Shown here: positions 26,575-35,305 of the stretch, in pieces | Layout: every line of letters begins with the position of its first letter | How positions within the stretch are numbered: position 1 is the stretch's first letter | Source of the DNA: Bacilli bacterium | Lineage (GTDB): Bacteria > Bacillota_I > Bacilli_A > RF39 > UBA660 | DNA: 35,831 nucleotides | Direction: 5' to 3' | NCBI GenBank assembly: GCA_029100965.1 | Contig: JAQXQC010000081.1 | Span: 1-35,831, forward strand | Translations under genes and position numbers: made by a program | The notes under the pieces: generated by a model | The model's database searches: none | Seen by the model: the letters and a program-made list of their open reading frames with translations, nothing else | Told to the model about the DNA's origin: nothing

Positions 26575-26606
26575 GATAGTATAGTTTTTTAAAGGAAGTG
26601 ATAGTG

Positions 26607-28766
26607 ATGAATGATGAATATAGAAATATAACAATAGAAGATTTAATTGAAAAAGTAAAGACTTACAATACCAATGAAAAAGATATAGAACTAATTAATA
26701 AAGCTTTTGATTATGCTTATAAAAAGCACTTTGGACAAAAAAGAATTAGTGGAGATGATTATATTACACATCCATTGAATGTTGCAATGATTTTAACGGA
26801 TATTAATGCCGATGCGACTTGTCTTGCAGCAGCCTTACTCCACGATACGATAGAAGATTCAGATAGTACAAAAGAAGAAGTTACCAAACTATTTGGAGCA
26901 GATGTTGCCTTATTGGTAGATGGTGTTACCAAGATTAATCGTCTTCATTTTTCTAATGCAGGAGAACAAATGGCAGCAAACCAAAGAAAAATCTTAGTAG
27001 GATTATCAGAAGATGTTAGAGTAATTATTATTAAATTAGCTGATCGTTTGCACAATATGAGAACATTATATGTTATGCCAGAAGAAAGGCAAAAGAAAAA
27101 AGCAAGAGAAACTCTAGAAATTTTAACTCCTGTAGCAGATAGATTGGGAATCAATAAAATTAAAAGTGAATTAGAAGATTTATCATTACGTTACTTAAAA
27201 CCAGATGTTTATTTTGATATTGTTGAAAAATTAAATGCTAAGAAAACAGAAATGGATGAAGATGTAAATGATATGTTAAAAGAAGTATCTAGTTTACTAA
27301 ATGAGCATAATATTAAACATGAAATCTTTGGAAGAAGTAAGAGTATTTATAGTATTTATAAAAAACTAGATAAAGGGAAAAAATTTAATGATATTTACGA
27401 TATCTTAGCCTTAAGAGTTTTAGTAGACACAGAACAAGAATGTTATTTAGCACTAGGATTAATCCATTCAAAATATAAACCAGTGCCTAATCGCTTTAAA
27501 GATTATATTGCTATGCCTAAAACTAATCTTTATCAATCTTTACATACGACTGTATTTGGGGTAGATGGAAAATTATTTGAAATTCAATTACGTACTTATG
27601 AAATGCATAAAATTGCTGAATATGGTATTGCCTCTCACTGGTCATATAAAGCACACGGTAGCGTAAAAACAGTAAAAGATTCTATGGAAGCAAAACTACA
27701 AATCTTTAGGAGTATTATGGAATTAAATGAAGAATCAGATACTCCAGAAGAATTTATCAGTAGTATTAAACAAGATGTCTTAAATAATAATTCCATTTAT
27801 GTATATACCCCTAAAGGAGATGTTTTAGAATTACCAGCAGGAGCAACTCCAGTAGATTTTGCTTATAAAGTCCATAGCGAAGTAGGAAATACTTTAGTAG
27901 GAGCTATTGTTAATGAAAATATAGTTCCTTTAGATTATCAGTTAAAAACAGGAGATATCATTAAAGTTAATACCAATAAATCCAGCAAAGGACCAAATAA
28001 AGATTGGCTAAATTTTGTTATTACTAGTCAAGCAAAAAATAAAATTAAATCTTTTTATAGCAAATTAGATAAAGATGAAAATCTAAATAAAGGACAAGAG
28101 ATTTTAACCAATGAATTAAGAAAAAACAATTTACCAGTTCATGAAAGTTTAACTGGTGAAAAATTAGATACTATCTTGGAAGAATTAAACTTAAAAACAT
28201 TAAATGAGTTGTATATGTTAGTAGGAACTTCAAAAGTTACTCCTCAATCTGTTGTTAAAATTTTAACTAAAGAAGAAGAAAAAGTAGATATTACTAGTAA
28301 AATTAATGAAAGTAATAATAAACCTATTATCAATAAAAATGATATTTTAGTAGAAGGATTAGATGATATTAAAGTAAATTTAAGTGGATGTTGTAAACCA
28401 ATACCAGGAGATAAAATTATTGGTTATATCACGAAAGGATCAGGAATTACAGTTCATAGAGCAATCTGCCAAAATATAGCAGATTTAGGAGAGAGATTGG
28501 TCAGTGTTAAATGGAATAATGACTTATCGAAAAAATACTTTACAGATTTAATTATTCATACCAATACATCAGATAACTTATTAGATATTATTACAAAAGC
28601 GAGTCTAAATAATATTACAATTGATAGTATTTCAACAATTAATAAAAGTGAATATAAAGTTTATAGCTTAACTGTATTAGTAGAAAATACAGAAAAATTA
28701 AATAAATTTATTACTGACTTAACAAACTTACCATTCACTTTAAAAGTAGAAAGATTATTAAAGTAA
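26607..28766 (+). CDS. rel: Bifunctional (p)ppGpp synthetase/hydrolase (Rel)
   Basis: This long RSH enzyme makes and degrades the starvation alarmone (p)ppGpp. The 719-residue protein has an HD hydrolase domain with YITHPLNVA and intact HDTIED. The synthetase domain has GRSKSIYSIYKK, DIYDILALRVLVD, NRFKDYIAMPKTNLYQSLHTTV and EIQLRT. A TGS domain (IYVYTPKGDVLELPAGATPV), a Cys-containing zinc-finger region (SGCCKPIPGD) and a C-terminal ACT domain follow. Both catalytic halves look intact. The ATG at 26607 was chosen because AAAGGAAG lies 8 bases upstream; GTG 26598 lies too near that site. It is separately terminated from the tandem synthetase gene downstream. Confidence 0.95.
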   Translation: MNDEYRNITIEDLIEKVKTYNTNEKDIELINKAFDYAYKKHFGQKRISGDDYITHPLNVAMILTDINADATCLAAALLHDTIEDSDSTKEEVTKLFGADVALLVDGVTKINRLHFSNAGEQMAANQRKILVGLSEDVRVIIIKLADRLHNMRTLYVMPEERQKKKARETLEILTPVADRLGINKIKSELEDLSLRYLKPDVYFDIVEKLNAKKTEMDEDVNDMLKEVSSLLNEHNIKHEIFGRSKSIYSIYKKLDKGKKFNDIYDILALRVLVDTEQECYLALGLIHSKYKPVPNRFKDYIAMPKTNLYQSLHTTVFGVDGKLFEIQLRTYEMHKIAEYGIASHWSYKAHGSVKTVKDSMEAKLQIFRSIMELNEESDTPEEFISSIKQDVLNNNSIYVYTPKGDVLELPAGATPVDFAYKVHSEVGNTLVGAIVNENIVPLDYQLKTGDIIKVNTNKSSKGPNKDWLNFVITSQAKNKIKSFYSKLDKDENLNKGQEILTNELRKNNLPVHESLTGEKLDTILEELNLKTLNELYMLVGTSKVTPQSVVKILTKEEEKVDITSKINESNNKPIINKNDILVEGLDDIKVNLSGCCKPIPGDKIIGYITKGSGITVHRAICQNIADLGERLVSVKWNNDLSKKYFTDLIIHTNTSDNLLDIITKASLNNITIDSISTINKSEYKVYSLTVLVENTEKLNKFITDLTNLPFTLKVERLLK

Positions 28767-29044: not shown

Positions 29045-29073
29045 TAGACAAAAAGCATTTAATGTATTATAAT
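29045..29073 (+). promoter_or_regulatory. Promoter of the tandem alarmone synthetase gene
   Basis: TAGACA (29045-29050), a 17-bp spacer and TATAAT (29068-29073). The 5' leader would be about 70 bases, ending in a very strong AAGGGGGGAG binding site. Confidence 0.65.
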
Positions 29074-29151
29074 ATATATCCATATCAAAAAGAACTATAA
29101 TTAAATTTATGCAATTTAATAAAGAAAATTAATAAAAAGGGGGGAGATTTT

Positions 29152-30435
29152 ATGGAACAATTAGATTTAATTTATCAAGTTGCAATGGATAAACTAAAAT
29201 ATAAATTTAATTCTCTTTCAAAAGAATTTTCCCTTTTAGAAGAGAATAATCCCATTGAGCATATTAAATATCGAATAAAAAAGAAGGATAGTATTGAAGG
29301 AAAACTTAAAAAAAAGAATCTTCCTATTACAGAAGAAAGTATTCGTAATTTAAATGATATCTTAGGAGTGAGGGTAGTTTGCTCTTTCTTAGATGATGTA
29401 GAAGTTTTAATTAAAACAATTGAAAGTGATCCAGAGATTACTATATTGAAGTGTAAAAATTATATTGATACACCCAAAAATAATGGTTATATGAGTTATC
29501 ATTTAAATATTGAATTTCCTGTTTTAGTGAATGGGGTAGTAGAAAAAGTAAAAGCAGAAATTCAAGTTCGTACAATTGCTATGGATATGTGGGCAAGTTT
29601 AGAACATAAAATATGGTATAAAAAAGGAATAGAATTACCAGAAGAAATGACTAATGAAATTTATCAAATGGCAGATTTTTGTAAAATAGTGGATGAAAGA
29701 TTAAATGTTTATGCAAGAAATGCTGAATTTAGAACACCAACTAAAAAGATTGAGTACCCTTTTCTCCAAGATAAAAAATATTCCATTACCAAACTAAAGC
29801 ATGAAGCAGCATTAAAAATAATGGAAGAAAAAATTCAGTCTATTGTAGAAGAGTATGGTTTAAGTGATAGCCCTAATCCTATTGAACATGTTAAAAGTCG
29901 CCTAAAGTCAGATGATTCTATTGGTTTAAAGTTACAAAGAGAACAAAAAACATTAACAGTAAATTCCATCGAAGAAAATATCAATGATTTTGCAGGGATT
30001 CGTATTGTTTGTTCATTTAAAAGCGATGTAGAAAAAATCGTAACATTACTAAAAGATGACGCTACAATGGAAATTGTTGAAGAACAAGACTACATTACTT
30101 ATCCAAAAGATAGTGGCTATAAATCCTATCATCTATTAGTCAATGTACCAATTTATTTGCAAAATGGAGTAGAGAAGATTAAAGTGGAAATCCAAATCCG
30201 TACCATTGCTATGGATATGTGGGCAAGTTTAGAACATAAATTATGTTATCACAAAGAAGTAGATTCACGAACTAACTTAGAGTTAAAAAGAATAGCAAAT
30301 GTAGTAGGAAACATCGATGAAAGCATGGAAGAAATCATCAAAAAATCAAGAAATTTAGTAGCCCAAAAAAGTAAAAAGAAAGTAAGAAAAAAAGAAATTA
30401 CTGATTCTATGCTAAATAAAGAAAACCAAAGTTAA
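29152..30435 (+). CDS. Tandem double small-alarmone-synthetase protein
   Basis: The 427-residue protein contains two RelA/SpoT synthetase domains of the RelQ/RelP (YjbM/YwaC) type. Domain 1 spans about residues 1-205 and domain 2 about 206-405. Each has the full motif set: IEH-(I/V)-K-x-R-(I/L)-K with D-S-I-x-x-K-L (29262- and about 29892-), N-D-x-x-G-(V/I)-R-(V/I)-V-C-S-F, D-Y-I/N-Y-I with P-K, G-Y-(M/K)-S-Y-H-L, and E-I-Q-(V/I)-R-T-I-A-M-D-M-W-A-S-L-E-H-K. Domain 1 has Met where the G-Y-x-S-Y-H motif usually has Lys/Arg; domain 2 has Lys. No hydrolase domain is present. A Lys-rich tail ends the protein. Normal members are about 210-250 residues and form tetramers. This protein would supply two subunits per chain. 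Product ((p)ppGpp or another alarmone) is inferred. Confidence 0.9.
   Translation: MEQLDLIYQVAMDKLKYKFNSLSKEFSLLEENNPIEHIKYRIKKKDSIEGKLKKKNLPITEESIRNLNDILGVRVVCSFLDDVEVLIKTIESDPEITILKCKNYIDTPKNNGYMSYHLNIEFPVLVNGVVEKVKAEIQVRTIAMDMWASLEHKIWYKKGIELPEEMTNEIYQMADFCKIVDERLNVYARNAEFRTPTKKIEYPFLQDKKYSITKLKHEAALKIMEEKIQSIVEEYGLSDSPNPIEHVKSRLKSDDSIGLKLQREQKTLTVNSIEENINDFAGIRIVCSFKSDVEKIVTLLKDDATMEIVEEQDYITYPKDSGYKSYHLLVNVPIYLQNGVEKIKVEIQIRTIAMDMWASLEHKLCYHKEVDSRTNLELKRIANVVGNIDESMEEIIKKSRNLVAQKSKKKVRKKEITDSMLNKENQS
29575..29610 (+). repeat. 36-bp perfect direct repeat within the tandem synthetase gene, copy 1
   Basis: This is identical to 30205-30240 (offset 630 bases, 210 codons) and encodes the I-A-M-D-M-W-A-S-L-E-H-K block. 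Identity extends through all synonymous positions of twelve codons, while flanking codons differ. Confidence 0.95.
30205..30240 (+). repeat. 36-bp perfect direct repeat within the tandem synthetase gene, copy 2
   Basis: Partner of 29575-29610, in the second synthetase domain. Confidence 0.95.
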
Positions 30436-30687: not shown

Positions 30688-31935
30688 GTGAGTAATATTT
30701 ATGTAACAAGTGAAATAGGAAAATTAAAAAAAGTTTTACTACATCGACCTGGAAATGAATTATTAAATTTAACCCCAGATACATTAAGTGAACTATTATT
30801 TGATGATATTCCTTATTTAAAAGATGCGCAAAAAGAACATGATGCTTTTGCAAAAGCATTAATGGACAATGACATTGAAGTAGTTTATTTAGAAGATTTA
30901 GTTAGTGAAGTCATTGCTAGTGATGAAGAAATTAGAGATAAATTTATTAAACAATTTATTTATGAGGCTGGCATTACTACAATTAAGTACAGCACATTAA
31001 CATATAATTTTCTAGATAGTATCAAAGATTCAAAAAAATTAGTCTTAAAAACAATGGAAGGAATTCAAATTAGGGATATTCCTAAAAGAAAAAGAGAAAT
31101 TGAAAAAACTTTGGTAGATCTAGTAGAAGAACCAGAAAAATTCATTGCACCACCTATGCCTAATTTATACTTTACAAGAGATAATTTTGCTAGCGTGGGA
31201 AGAGGAGCAAACTTAAATCACATGTATTCTATAACAAGAAATAGAGAATGTATATATGCAGAATATGTATTTAAATATCATCCTGATTTTAAAGAATGTC
31301 CTTTATATTATGATAGAAGTTATCATTGGCATACAGAAGGTGGAGATTTTTTAAATATTAACGAAAAAGTGGTAGCCATTGGGATTTCTCAACGTACAGA
31401 ACCAGCTGCAATCGATCAATTGGCAAAAAACTTTTTTAGAGATCCAAGATGCAAAATTGAAACAATCTTAGCTTTTAATATTCCAGTATCCCGTGCTTTT
31501 ATGCATTTAGATACAGTATTTACCCAAATTGACAAATATACTTTTACGTACCATCCTGGAATTTCTGATACATTACAAGTATTTGAGATTACAGAAGGAT
31601 TTGATCCTACAACATTTGAAGATTTAAATGTAAAAGAATTAAAGGGAAGTTTAAAAGAAATATTAGAAAAATACTTACATCATCCAGTCACTTTGATACC
31701 ATGTGCTGGTGGAGATAAAGTAGCTTCTGAACGAGAACAATGGAATGATGGATCTAATACGTTATGTATTGCCCCTGGAGTAGTAGTAGTATATGATAGA
31801 AATAATGTTACTAATGATGCACTACGTAGAGCAGGAATTAAAGTAATCGAAGTACATGGTTCTGAACTTGGTCGTGGTCGTGGAGGTCCTAGATGTATGT
31901 CTATGCCACTTGTAAGGGAGGATGTACAATGGTAG
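30688..31935 (+). CDS. arcA: Arginine deiminase
   Basis: This enzyme hydrolyses arginine to citrulline and ammonia, the first step of the arginine deiminase pathway. The 415-residue length is typical. Landmarks are [12 protein letters not shown] near the N-terminus, [24 protein letters not shown] with the catalytic His/Asp region, and [13 protein letters not shown] with nucleophile Cys403. The start is GTG 30688, supported by AAGGAG seven bases upstream and the [12 protein letters not shown] beginning of the family. The end overlaps arcB by seven bases (31929-31935), giving a tightly coupled operon. Confidence 0.97.
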
Positions 31936-32921
31936 ATTTAAGAGGAAGAGATTTTTTAAAACTATTAGATTTTACTCCAACAGAAATTAGACACTTATTA
32001 GATGTAGCAAAGACATTAAAAAAACAAAAAAGAAATGGAGAATCTCATCGTTATTTAAAAGGAAAACAAATTGCCATGATTTTCGAAAAAGATTCAACTA
32101 GAACAAGATGTGCTTTTGAAGCAGGTGCCCATGATCTGGGAATGGAAGCAACTTACCTAGGACCTACAGGTTCTCAATTAGGAAAGAAAGAAACAATAGA
32201 AGACACTGCTCGTGTTTTATCAGGAATGTATGATGGAATTGAATATCGAGGATTTGATCAAAAAATTGTTGAATCATTAGCAAAATACAGTAAAGTTCCA
32301 GTATGGAATGGACTTACCAATGAATTTCATCCAACACAAATGCTTGCAGATATCATGACAATTCAAGAAGAATTCGGTAACCTAAAGGGAAGAAAATTAG
32401 TTTTTTGTGGAGATGCTAGAAATAATGTTGGAAATTCTTTAATGGTAGTTTGTGCAAAATTAGGAATGCATTTTGTTTGCTGTGCACCTAAAAATTTATG
32501 GCCAGAAGAAAATTTAACAGATGAATGTCGTAAAATTGCAGAAGGAACTAATGCAAAAATAGAAATGACAGAAGATATCATGGAAGGTACTAAAAATGCG
32601 GATGCTATTTATACTGATGTTTGGGTATCTATGGGAGAACCTATGGAATTATGGGAGGAAAGAATTAAATTATTAAGCCCATATCAAGTTAATGCTAAAG
32701 TAATGAAAAATGCTAAAAAAGAAGCTATTTTCTTACATTGTTTACCTTCTTTTCATAATAATGAAACAACTATAGGAAAACAAATAGAAGAAAAATTTGG
32801 AATTAAAGAAATGGAAGTTACAGATGAAGTATTTGAATCTAATCAGTCACGTGTATTCGAAGAAGCAGAGAATAGATTACATACAATAAAAGCTGTAATG
32901 TTGGAGACGTTGAAAAAATGA
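31929..32921 (+). CDS. arcB: Ornithine carbamoyltransferase, catabolic
   Basis: This enzyme converts citrulline and phosphate to ornithine and carbamoyl phosphate in this operon context. The 330-residue protein shows the carbamoyl-phosphate loop [63 protein letters not shown], and [11 protein letters not shown] with the catalytic Cys. The ATG at 31929 has GGGAGG eight bases upstream inside arcA; upstream starts in this frame lie within arcA coding sequence and were rejected. Its TGA overlaps the next ATG (ATGA at 32918-32921). Confidence 0.96.
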
Positions 32922-35305
32922 GTAAAATAGTAATAGCGTTAGGTGGAAATGCGCTAGGAAAAACTCCACAAGAACAACATGATTTAATTGAAAAAACAGT
33001 AAAACATGTTGTTGACTTAGTAGAAGATGGTAATCAAATCGTTATAACACATGGTAATGGACCACAAGTAGGAATGATATATGACTCTATGCAAAAAGAG
33101 AAAATGCCATTTGCTGAAAGTGGTGCTATGTCCCAAGGGTATATTGGCTATCAACTACAACAAACATTAAAAGATGAACTTAATAATAGAGGAATCGAAA
33201 AAAGCGTTGTAACGGTAGTTACACAAGTTGAAGTAGATCCTAAAGATAATGCTTTTAAGAATCCTACCAAGCCTATTGGAGAATTCTTAACTAAAGAAGA
33301 AGCAACTAAAAGAGCAAAAAAAGACAAAGCAGTTTATAAAGAAGATTCTGGTAGAGGATATCGAAAAGTAGTTGCCTCACCTATGCCAAAAAAAATATTA
33401 GAATTAAATACAATTGAAAAATTAGTTAATGATGGAACAATTGTCATTGCTTGTGGCGGTGGTGGAATTCCAGTAGTTATGACTAAAAAAGATGGCTATG
33501 AAGGAATAGACGCTGTTATCGATAAAGATAGAACAAGTGCATTACTTGCTAAAGAAATTAATGCAGATGAATTATTAATTTTAACAGCAGTAGATCAAGT
33601 TTCTTTAAATTTTAATAAAAAGAATGAAGAAAAACTATCAAAATTATCAGTATCAGATGCAAGAGTTGCTATTAGAAACGAAGAATTTGGTGAAGGAAGT
33701 ATGTTACCAAAAATTGAAGCAGCATGTTATTTTGCTTCAAAAACAGGAAAGAAAGCTATAATTTCTTCTCTAGAGAAAGCAAGAGATGCAATTGATGGTA
33801 AAAATGGTACACTAATTTATCAAGATGAAGCACAAGAAAAATCAAAAAAGAAAAGAATATCTTTCTCTTTAAGTGCATTTACAATTATTTTAATCTTGAT
33901 TTATTTACTAGCAGCAGCAACACATATTCTTCCAGCCGCTCAATTTGATGGAAAAGATATTATAAATGGTACAGGGGTAGTAGGAGCAACACTATCACAA
34001 GCCTTATTAGCACCAATTAAAGGCTTTGGAGATGCTATTGATATTTGTGTTTTTGTACTTATTTTAGGATCATTCTTAAAAATAGTTAATTCAACAAATG
34101 CAATAGAAACGGGAATTCAAGTATTAATAAAAAAATTACATGGACATGAATTAATATTAATACCTATTTTAATGATTTTGTTTTCAATAGGTGGAACAAC
34201 ATATGGAATGTTAGAAGAAACTGTTGGATTTTATGCTCTACTTGCCGCTGCAATGGTAGCAGCAGGTATGGATACTATTGTATCATCAGCAATTGTTTTA
34301 TTAGGTGCAGGTTCAGGAGTGCTAGGATCAACAGTAAATCCATTTGCAGTTGGAGTTGCTGTTGATGCTGCGAAATCTGTTTTACCAGCAGGAACTACAA
34401 TTAATCAAGGTGTTATCATTGGATTAGGTGCAATTTTATGGATTACTACATTATTAATTTCAATTATATTTGTAATGTCGTATGCTAAGAAAGTAATTGC
34501 CAAAAAAGGATCAACAATTTTAAGCCTACAAGAAGTTAAAAATATGGAAGCAACATACGGAGATGAAGGAATTGGTAAGAAGAATGTTAAATTATCAGGA
34601 AGACAAAAATTAACTTTAATTCTTTTTGCATTTACTTTTGTTATCATGATTATTAGTTTTATTCCATGGGAAGATTTTGGGGTTACATTATTTGCAGATT
34701 CTAAATTTATTGGATTATCTTGGCTAGTTGGTTGCCCATTAGGACAATGGTACTTCCAAGAAGCAACTTTATGGTTTTTAATGATGGCTATAATTATTGC
34801 TATTGTAAACAAAATGTCAGAACATGAAATAGTTGATAAATTGGTTGATGGAGCAGATGATATGGTAGGAGTTATTTTAATCATTGCGCTTGCTCGTGGT
34901 GCATCAGTTTTAATGAGTCAGACTTATTTAGACAATTATTTAATTTATAATGTATCAAAAGTATTAGAAATGGTACCAAGAATAGTATTTGCCCCTCTTA
35001 ACTATATTTTCCACGTTGGATTATCAGTATTAGTTCCATCAAGTAGTGGACTTGCTACATTATCGTCACCAATTATGGCACCACTTGCACAGAAAGTAGG
35101 ATTTAGTGTAGAAACTACAATTATGGAAATGGTAGCAGCTAATGGTTTTGTTAATTTATTTACTCCAACTTGTGGAGCTATCATGGGAGGACTTGCCCTT
35201 GCAAAAGTTGAATATACAAGTTGGTTAAAATGGGTATCAAAAGTGCTTGTTTGTATAGCTCTTGCTAATATCTTAATATTAACTATAGCAATGCTTATTT
35301 TATAA
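32918..35305 (+). CDS. arcC-arcD: Carbamate kinase fused to YfcC/ArcD-type arginine-ornithine antiporter
   Basis: The 795-residue fusion joins two complete proteins. Residues 1-300 are carbamate kinase, which makes ATP from carbamoyl phosphate and [65 protein letters not shown] and [13 protein letters not shown] are all present. A charged linker of about 13 residues ([12 protein letters not shown], 301-313) follows. Residues 314-795 are a polytopic YfcC/DcuC-superfamily transporter with about 12 hydrophobic segments and the motifs [33 protein letters not shown] and [18 protein letters not shown]. YfcC proteins in arc operons act as arginine/ornithine antiporters. No in-frame ATG or ribosome binding site lies at the junction, so a separate transporter is unlikely. 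The kinase would face the cytoplasm. Confidence 0.93.

Follow-up and report, generated by a model that had tools for sequence, protein, structure and literature searches.

Small alarmone synthetases (SAS) of the RelP and RelQ types are drawn with one synthetase domain per chain, and they form homotetramers held together by helix 1 and helices 5/6 (PMC5794853). Because SAS have been characterised as homotetramers, the contributions of single subunits are inseparable. The window analysed here, a 35,831-nucleotide stretch of DNA from a Bacilli bacterium, contains a gene that appears to join two such domains in one chain, and it raises the questions of whether this architecture is real, how it arose, and whether its two halves have equal roles.

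Two synthetase domains in one open reading frame

The gene starts with ATG, and a profile search with its product gave two PF04607 matches (190.7 bits and E = 9.1e-57 for the whole protein), the core of domain 1 covering residues 41 to 159 (E = 4e-28 alone) and that of domain 2 residues 249 to 369 (E = 1.2e-29 alone). As in other SAS, the synthetase domains are unaccompanied by HD, TGS, or ACT domains, and the protein departs from the SAS pattern only in having two of them, in a single open frame that is kept in relatives. Equivalent residues at invariant columns (R41/R250, Y113/Y323, and E136/E346) are 209 to 210 codons apart. The predicted model, made from a two-row alignment, has two complete SAS folds by secondary structure (mean pLDDT 72, pTM 0.59), and a structure search matched it to SaRelP 6ewz (E = 1.2e-16, TM to target 0.83) and also to BsRelQ; at this pTM the relative orientation of the two domains is not confidently modelled. 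These data bear out the sequence-only reading of two complete synthetase domains with a period of about 210 codons. Features of the locus are collected in Table 1.

Table 1. Features of the tandem SAS locus, in window coordinates
Feature	Position	Strand	Basis or remark
Long bifunctional-type Rel (HD, synthetase, TGS, ACT)	26598..28766	+	Profile search; upstream of tandem gene
Sigma-70-like promoter match TAGACA-17-TATAAT, 11/12	29045..29073	+	Consensus only; shuffles give more matches than the region
Shine-Dalgarno-like GGGGGGAGA 5' of ATG	29139..29147	+	Sequence
Tandem SAS gene, 427 aa	29152..30435	+	Open reading frame and two PF04607 matches
Domain 1, residues 1-196, 13/13 active-site positions retained	29152..29739	+	PF04607, residue alignment
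36-base identical stretch, copy 1, codes IAMDMWASLEHK	29575..29610	+	Possible small gene-conversion tract, permutation p 0.009
Inter-domain linker, approximate, residues 190-207	29719..29772	+	Less confidently modelled stretch separating helix 164-189 from helix 208-236
Domain 2, residues 204-410, 13/13 active-site positions retained in window protein, unlike most relatives	29761..30381	+	PF04607, alignment
36-base identical stretch, copy 2	30205..30240	+	Permutation p 0.009

Two objections named beforehand would have made the gene less interesting: that the halves come from the assembly collapse of two adjacent genes, and that the architecture is already described as common. The first is ruled out, as the same architecture is found in 11 other genomes. 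In total, 12 tandem proteins were found, all from one family, in five genomes of the window's genus (g1: G000, which carries the window, G002, G004, G005, and G006) and in three other genera (g165: G282, G793, and G852; g44: G221 and G314; g39: G216 and G816). A sister genome has a tandem open reading frame that is 54 to 55% identical, in the same secDF-rel-SAS-arcA locus, and ten more tandem proteins came to light besides. The fusion is nevertheless uncommon. Among 386 genomes of the family, 96 carried a matching SAS, which was tandem in 11 of them (G005 came from a separate search), the other SAS-bearing genomes, about 85 in number, having single-domain SAS only. In a class sample of 395 genomes, 90 had an SAS match, seven of them family members, and none of the 83 SAS-bearing genomes outside the family had an open frame long enough for two domains. 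The phylum sample consisted mostly of the same class, and the distribution result therefore covers the family and the class. Within the window's genus, G003 retains both rel and the gene located just after the tandem SAS in G004 to G006, with no SAS between or near them (L164); as this rel neighbourhood lies on one contig, the SAS looks lost in G003. The genome of G001, from the same genus, is only 58% complete.

As to the second objection, the literature searched contained neither a description of the architecture as common nor any report of an SAS with a second synthetase domain fused to it, which is weak evidence, subscription papers being outside its coverage. To that extent the fused double-synthetase SAS appears to be a variant without a published account, SAS being otherwise described as single-domain. 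The second domain of the dual-domain SAS of Mycobacterium smegmatis is RNase HII, whereas here both domains are synthetases. The likeness to that protein (PMC7591505) lies in an SAS domain being fused to another domain.

The tandem gene lies between the long Rel and arginine-deiminase-type genes; of the five genomes of the genus with a tandem gene, four have Rel as its upstream neighbour. A toxin-antitoxin or defence reading was rejected, the sole match being the PADLOC candidate model PDC-S33 and the neighbours being rel and the arginine-deiminase-type genes. A phage or plasmid origin was likewise rejected: among the listed matches, both query halves map to the same single-domain gene, and viral contigs gave two weak matches with the tandem query and zero with single halves.

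Affinity of the halves with RelP

The sequence-only reading had described the halves as RelQ/RelP-like. That they are synthetase domains stands, and their affinity is with RelP, not RelQ. In a domain tree rooted on BsRelQ, a branch supported at 100/100 splits BsRelQ and one SAS of the class from all other domains, and the tandem halves cluster with single-domain SAS of the family, apart from BsRelQ. The G-loop proline (SaRelP P146), which is His in BsRelQ, is present in 24 of 24 tandem halves, so that the flexible, proline-free G-loop of the RelQ type is found in neither half of the window protein, and both of these halves have all the RelP-type residues R78, K80, S84, K88, D107, R112, Y151, E174, and H190 (SaRelP numbering). 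The closest solved structure to domain 1 in a sequence search was RelP/YwaC (E = 7e-49); among the listed structure matches that cover domain 2, RelQ/YjbM was closest (E = 3e-31). An NCBIfam YjbM-type model matches both halves, yet under its curated cut-off of 320 bits. Each half resembles RelP/SAS2/YwaC (6fgk, 6ewz, and 6fgj) in fold, in ATP-site and guanosine-site residues, and in the G-loop proline, and is 46 to 47% identical to BsRelP; the difference is that RelP is a one-domain homotetramer, whereas here two domains are fused and the C-terminal half loses active-site residues in relatives. With RelQ/SAS1/YjbM (5dec, 5ded, and 5f2v) the halves share the synthetase fold and catalytic residues, but they are only 28 to 35% identical to it and lie on a separate branch. 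Judged by residues and tree position, both halves are RelP-side SAS domains.

This assignment affects how the protein might be regulated. RelQ, in which His111 replaces the G-loop proline, is stimulated by pppGpp, and BsRelQ R117, the equivalent of SaRelP R152, couples pppGpp binding to the G-loop, its replacement having abolished stimulation; characterised RelP lacks this stimulation (PMC5794853). The argument from allosteric sites made in the sequence-only reading applies to RelQ and, given the G-loop proline of the halves, fails to carry over, so RelQ-like allostery was put aside. Nor did the proposal fare better that domain 1 had specialised by losing a normally basic residue (GYMSYH instead of GYKSYH). 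The site varies freely among the 43 single-domain SAS of the family (at position 152, S in 20, T in 7, I in 5, R in 5, and M in 3), ruling out specialisation on this ground.

Origin of the fusion

The domain-level phylogeny (87 rows, IQ-TREE, LG+G4) placed the halves with their own genus: the N- and C-terminal halves of g165 form one group (100/97), with G177's single-domain SAS branching outside it (100/99), the halves of g44 (99/81) and of g1 (94/88) likewise form one group each, and the g39 halves are long-branched. In AU tests, one clade of N-terminal halves from g1, g165, and g44 was rejected (p = 3.1e-6). Restricting that clade to g1 and g165 also led to rejection (p = 3.4e-4), joining every tandem half in one clade was rejected weakly (p = 0.035), and a single duplication within g1 was not rejected (p = 0.38). 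Some of these groups were defined once the tree had been seen, which makes the p values optimistic. Five neighbour genes match in order between G177 and G282 of g165, and the single-domain SAS of G177 occupies the place of the tandem gene, on a contig that ends 122 bases past the SAS stop codon. Since the halves group by genus, the N-terminal clade is rejected, and a single-domain gene stands at the syntenic place in g165, the fusion probably arose repeatedly within one family, through at least two and probably three separate duplications.

The main alternative, which we consider improbable, is that one ancient tandem gene was present in the family ancestor, its halves being homogenised genus by genus through gene conversion and most genera being later reduced to one domain. 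The p values for g1 and for all tandem halves leave some room for such a history, and possible conversion tracts are consistent with it: in the window, 36 bases over the catalytic segment are identical between the halves (permutation p = 0.009), and G793 has a second candidate (permutation p = 0.022). However, the conversion signal is absent over most of the gene length and in the other eight proteins tested, and a single ancestral gene is hard to reconcile with the rejected N-terminal clades, with a single-domain gene in G177 that branches outside both g165 halves, and with the different loci at which other genera carry the tandem gene.

Inequality of the halves and assembly

That the halves differ is indicated by thirteen active-site positions (SaRelP 78, 80, 84, 88, 107, 112, 146, 151, 155, 174, 176, 178, and 190; PMC5794853). 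All thirteen are invariant in the 43 single-domain SAS of the family and, except for one P146Q, in 17 single-domain SAS of the class. Domain 1 keeps all of them in 11 of the 12 tandem proteins, the exception being H190W in G216. In domain 2, at least one is changed in 9 of the 12, although losses within a genus share ancestry and these are not nine independent events: S84 is A, R, or N in G002, G005, and G006; H190 is D or E in G005, G282, G793, G852, and G816; R112K, H155K, and Q176L/I occur in G216 and G816; and G221 has R178K. Only the window protein, G004, and G314 are unchanged in domain 2. Changes equivalent to H190 or S84 may weaken catalysis and not abolish it. In every pair tested, pN was far lower than pS for each half, so purifying selection still acts on domain 2, which is not simply dead. 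The earlier suggestion that the halves have specialised thus holds as an inequality across the set, but its assignment of a regulatory role to domain 1 and a catalytic one to domain 2 does not, as it is domain 1 that is conserved and domain 2 that loses residues, with neither doing so in the window protein. Both halves of the window protein look competent, and, because its two active sites look intact, specialisation is inferred from its relatives.

The tandem protein could also be read as having two equal catalytic domains that both make alarmone, the fusion fixing only stoichiometry or dosage and the losses in relatives being lineage-specific drift without a regulatory role. The three proteins with both sites intact fit this, as does the 36-base tract, which suggests occasional homogenisation of the catalytic segment, but we regard it as rather unlikely overall: against the 9 of 12 tandem proteins changed in domain 2, only 1 of 12 is changed in domain 1, and among the family's single-domain SAS the figure is 0 of 43. 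The loss also runs in the same direction in each of the three separable groups. Less credible by far is a gain by domain 2 of a different nucleotide specificity or product, such as ATP-directed or pGpp synthesis, in place of a pseudo-subunit role. The recurrent H190 change to D or E could repurpose an ATP-ribose contact, and constraint on domain 2 persists; the substitutions nevertheless differ from protein to protein, which suits relaxed constraint better than a single new specificity.

The helices that hold RelP and RelQ tetramers together were scored region by region against the family's single-domain profile, with the expectation predicted from the core in single-domain controls. Helix 1 and helices 5/6 are more diverged than the core predicts in 24 of 24 tandem halves (residuals of -0.2 to -3.5 control sd), a score that depends on the alignment near the linker and that is also low in helices 5/6 of some divergent single-domain SAS. 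This divergence would suit a changed assembly.

On balance we favour, by a modest degree, a history in which a single RelP-side SAS gene was duplicated in place and joined in frame, yielding a covalent dimer with domain 1 as a constrained catalyst and domain 2 as a partner with relaxed active-site constraint. The most likely product of the protein, as for its family, is (p)ppGpp or a related alarmone, formed from ATP and GDP or GTP. By comparison with the homotetramers that single-domain RelP and RelQ build through helix 1 and helices 5/6, the two-domain chain is probably a covalent dimer, two chains of which would give a four-domain assembly. The residue pattern suggests that domain 1 is held under strict constraint as the catalyst; domain 2 is competent-looking here, has ATP-site or guanosine-site changes in most relatives, and may in these serve as a scaffold or a regulatory pseudo-subunit. 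A tandem chain acting as a pseudo-heterodimer, as the sequence-only reading proposed, is plausible. More tentatively, the repeatedly evolved fusions of this family could pair an N-terminal catalyst with a C-terminal pseudo-synthetase acting as its nucleotide-sensing regulator. Trypanosomatid deoxyhypusine synthase offers an analogy, an active and a catalytically dead paralogue occurring in one assembly (PMC3663545), although that enzyme is unrelated, its copies are separate chains, and the arrangement was shown experimentally.

Covalent fusions of this kind, which probably arose repeatedly within the family, allow each subunit to be mutated alone, making subunit communication and pseudo-subunit evolution in alarmone synthesis directly testable. 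The tandem set ranges from proteins with two intact halves to proteins with one degraded half, a natural series that bears on how a homomeric enzyme turns asymmetric. If the pseudo-synthetase reading is true, the series would include a built-in pseudo-heterodimer among enzymes characterised as homotetramers.

The tandem SAS of g39 (G216, L089 6288-7640; G816, L132) stand apart, their halves being 20 to 25% identical, with R112K and H155K in both second domains, and they possibly have a different function. A truncated Rel paralogue of about 480 to 505 aa with HD, synthetase, and a TGS-like end was also seen (L003 1069-2586 on contig C83 of G000; L158; L159), with similar frames in G001, G023, G034, G041, and G049. 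It looks hydrolase-only, since the HD motifs remain but residues of the synthetase are gone (Gln or another residue for the catalytic Glu, Lys for Arg). Downstream of the tandem gene, positions 30688 to 35305 hold what we take, from reading the sequences, to be arcA-, argF-, and arcC-like genes. The last product (32918-35305, 795 aa), presumably a carbamate kinase fused to a membrane transporter, is conserved at 98% in G002.
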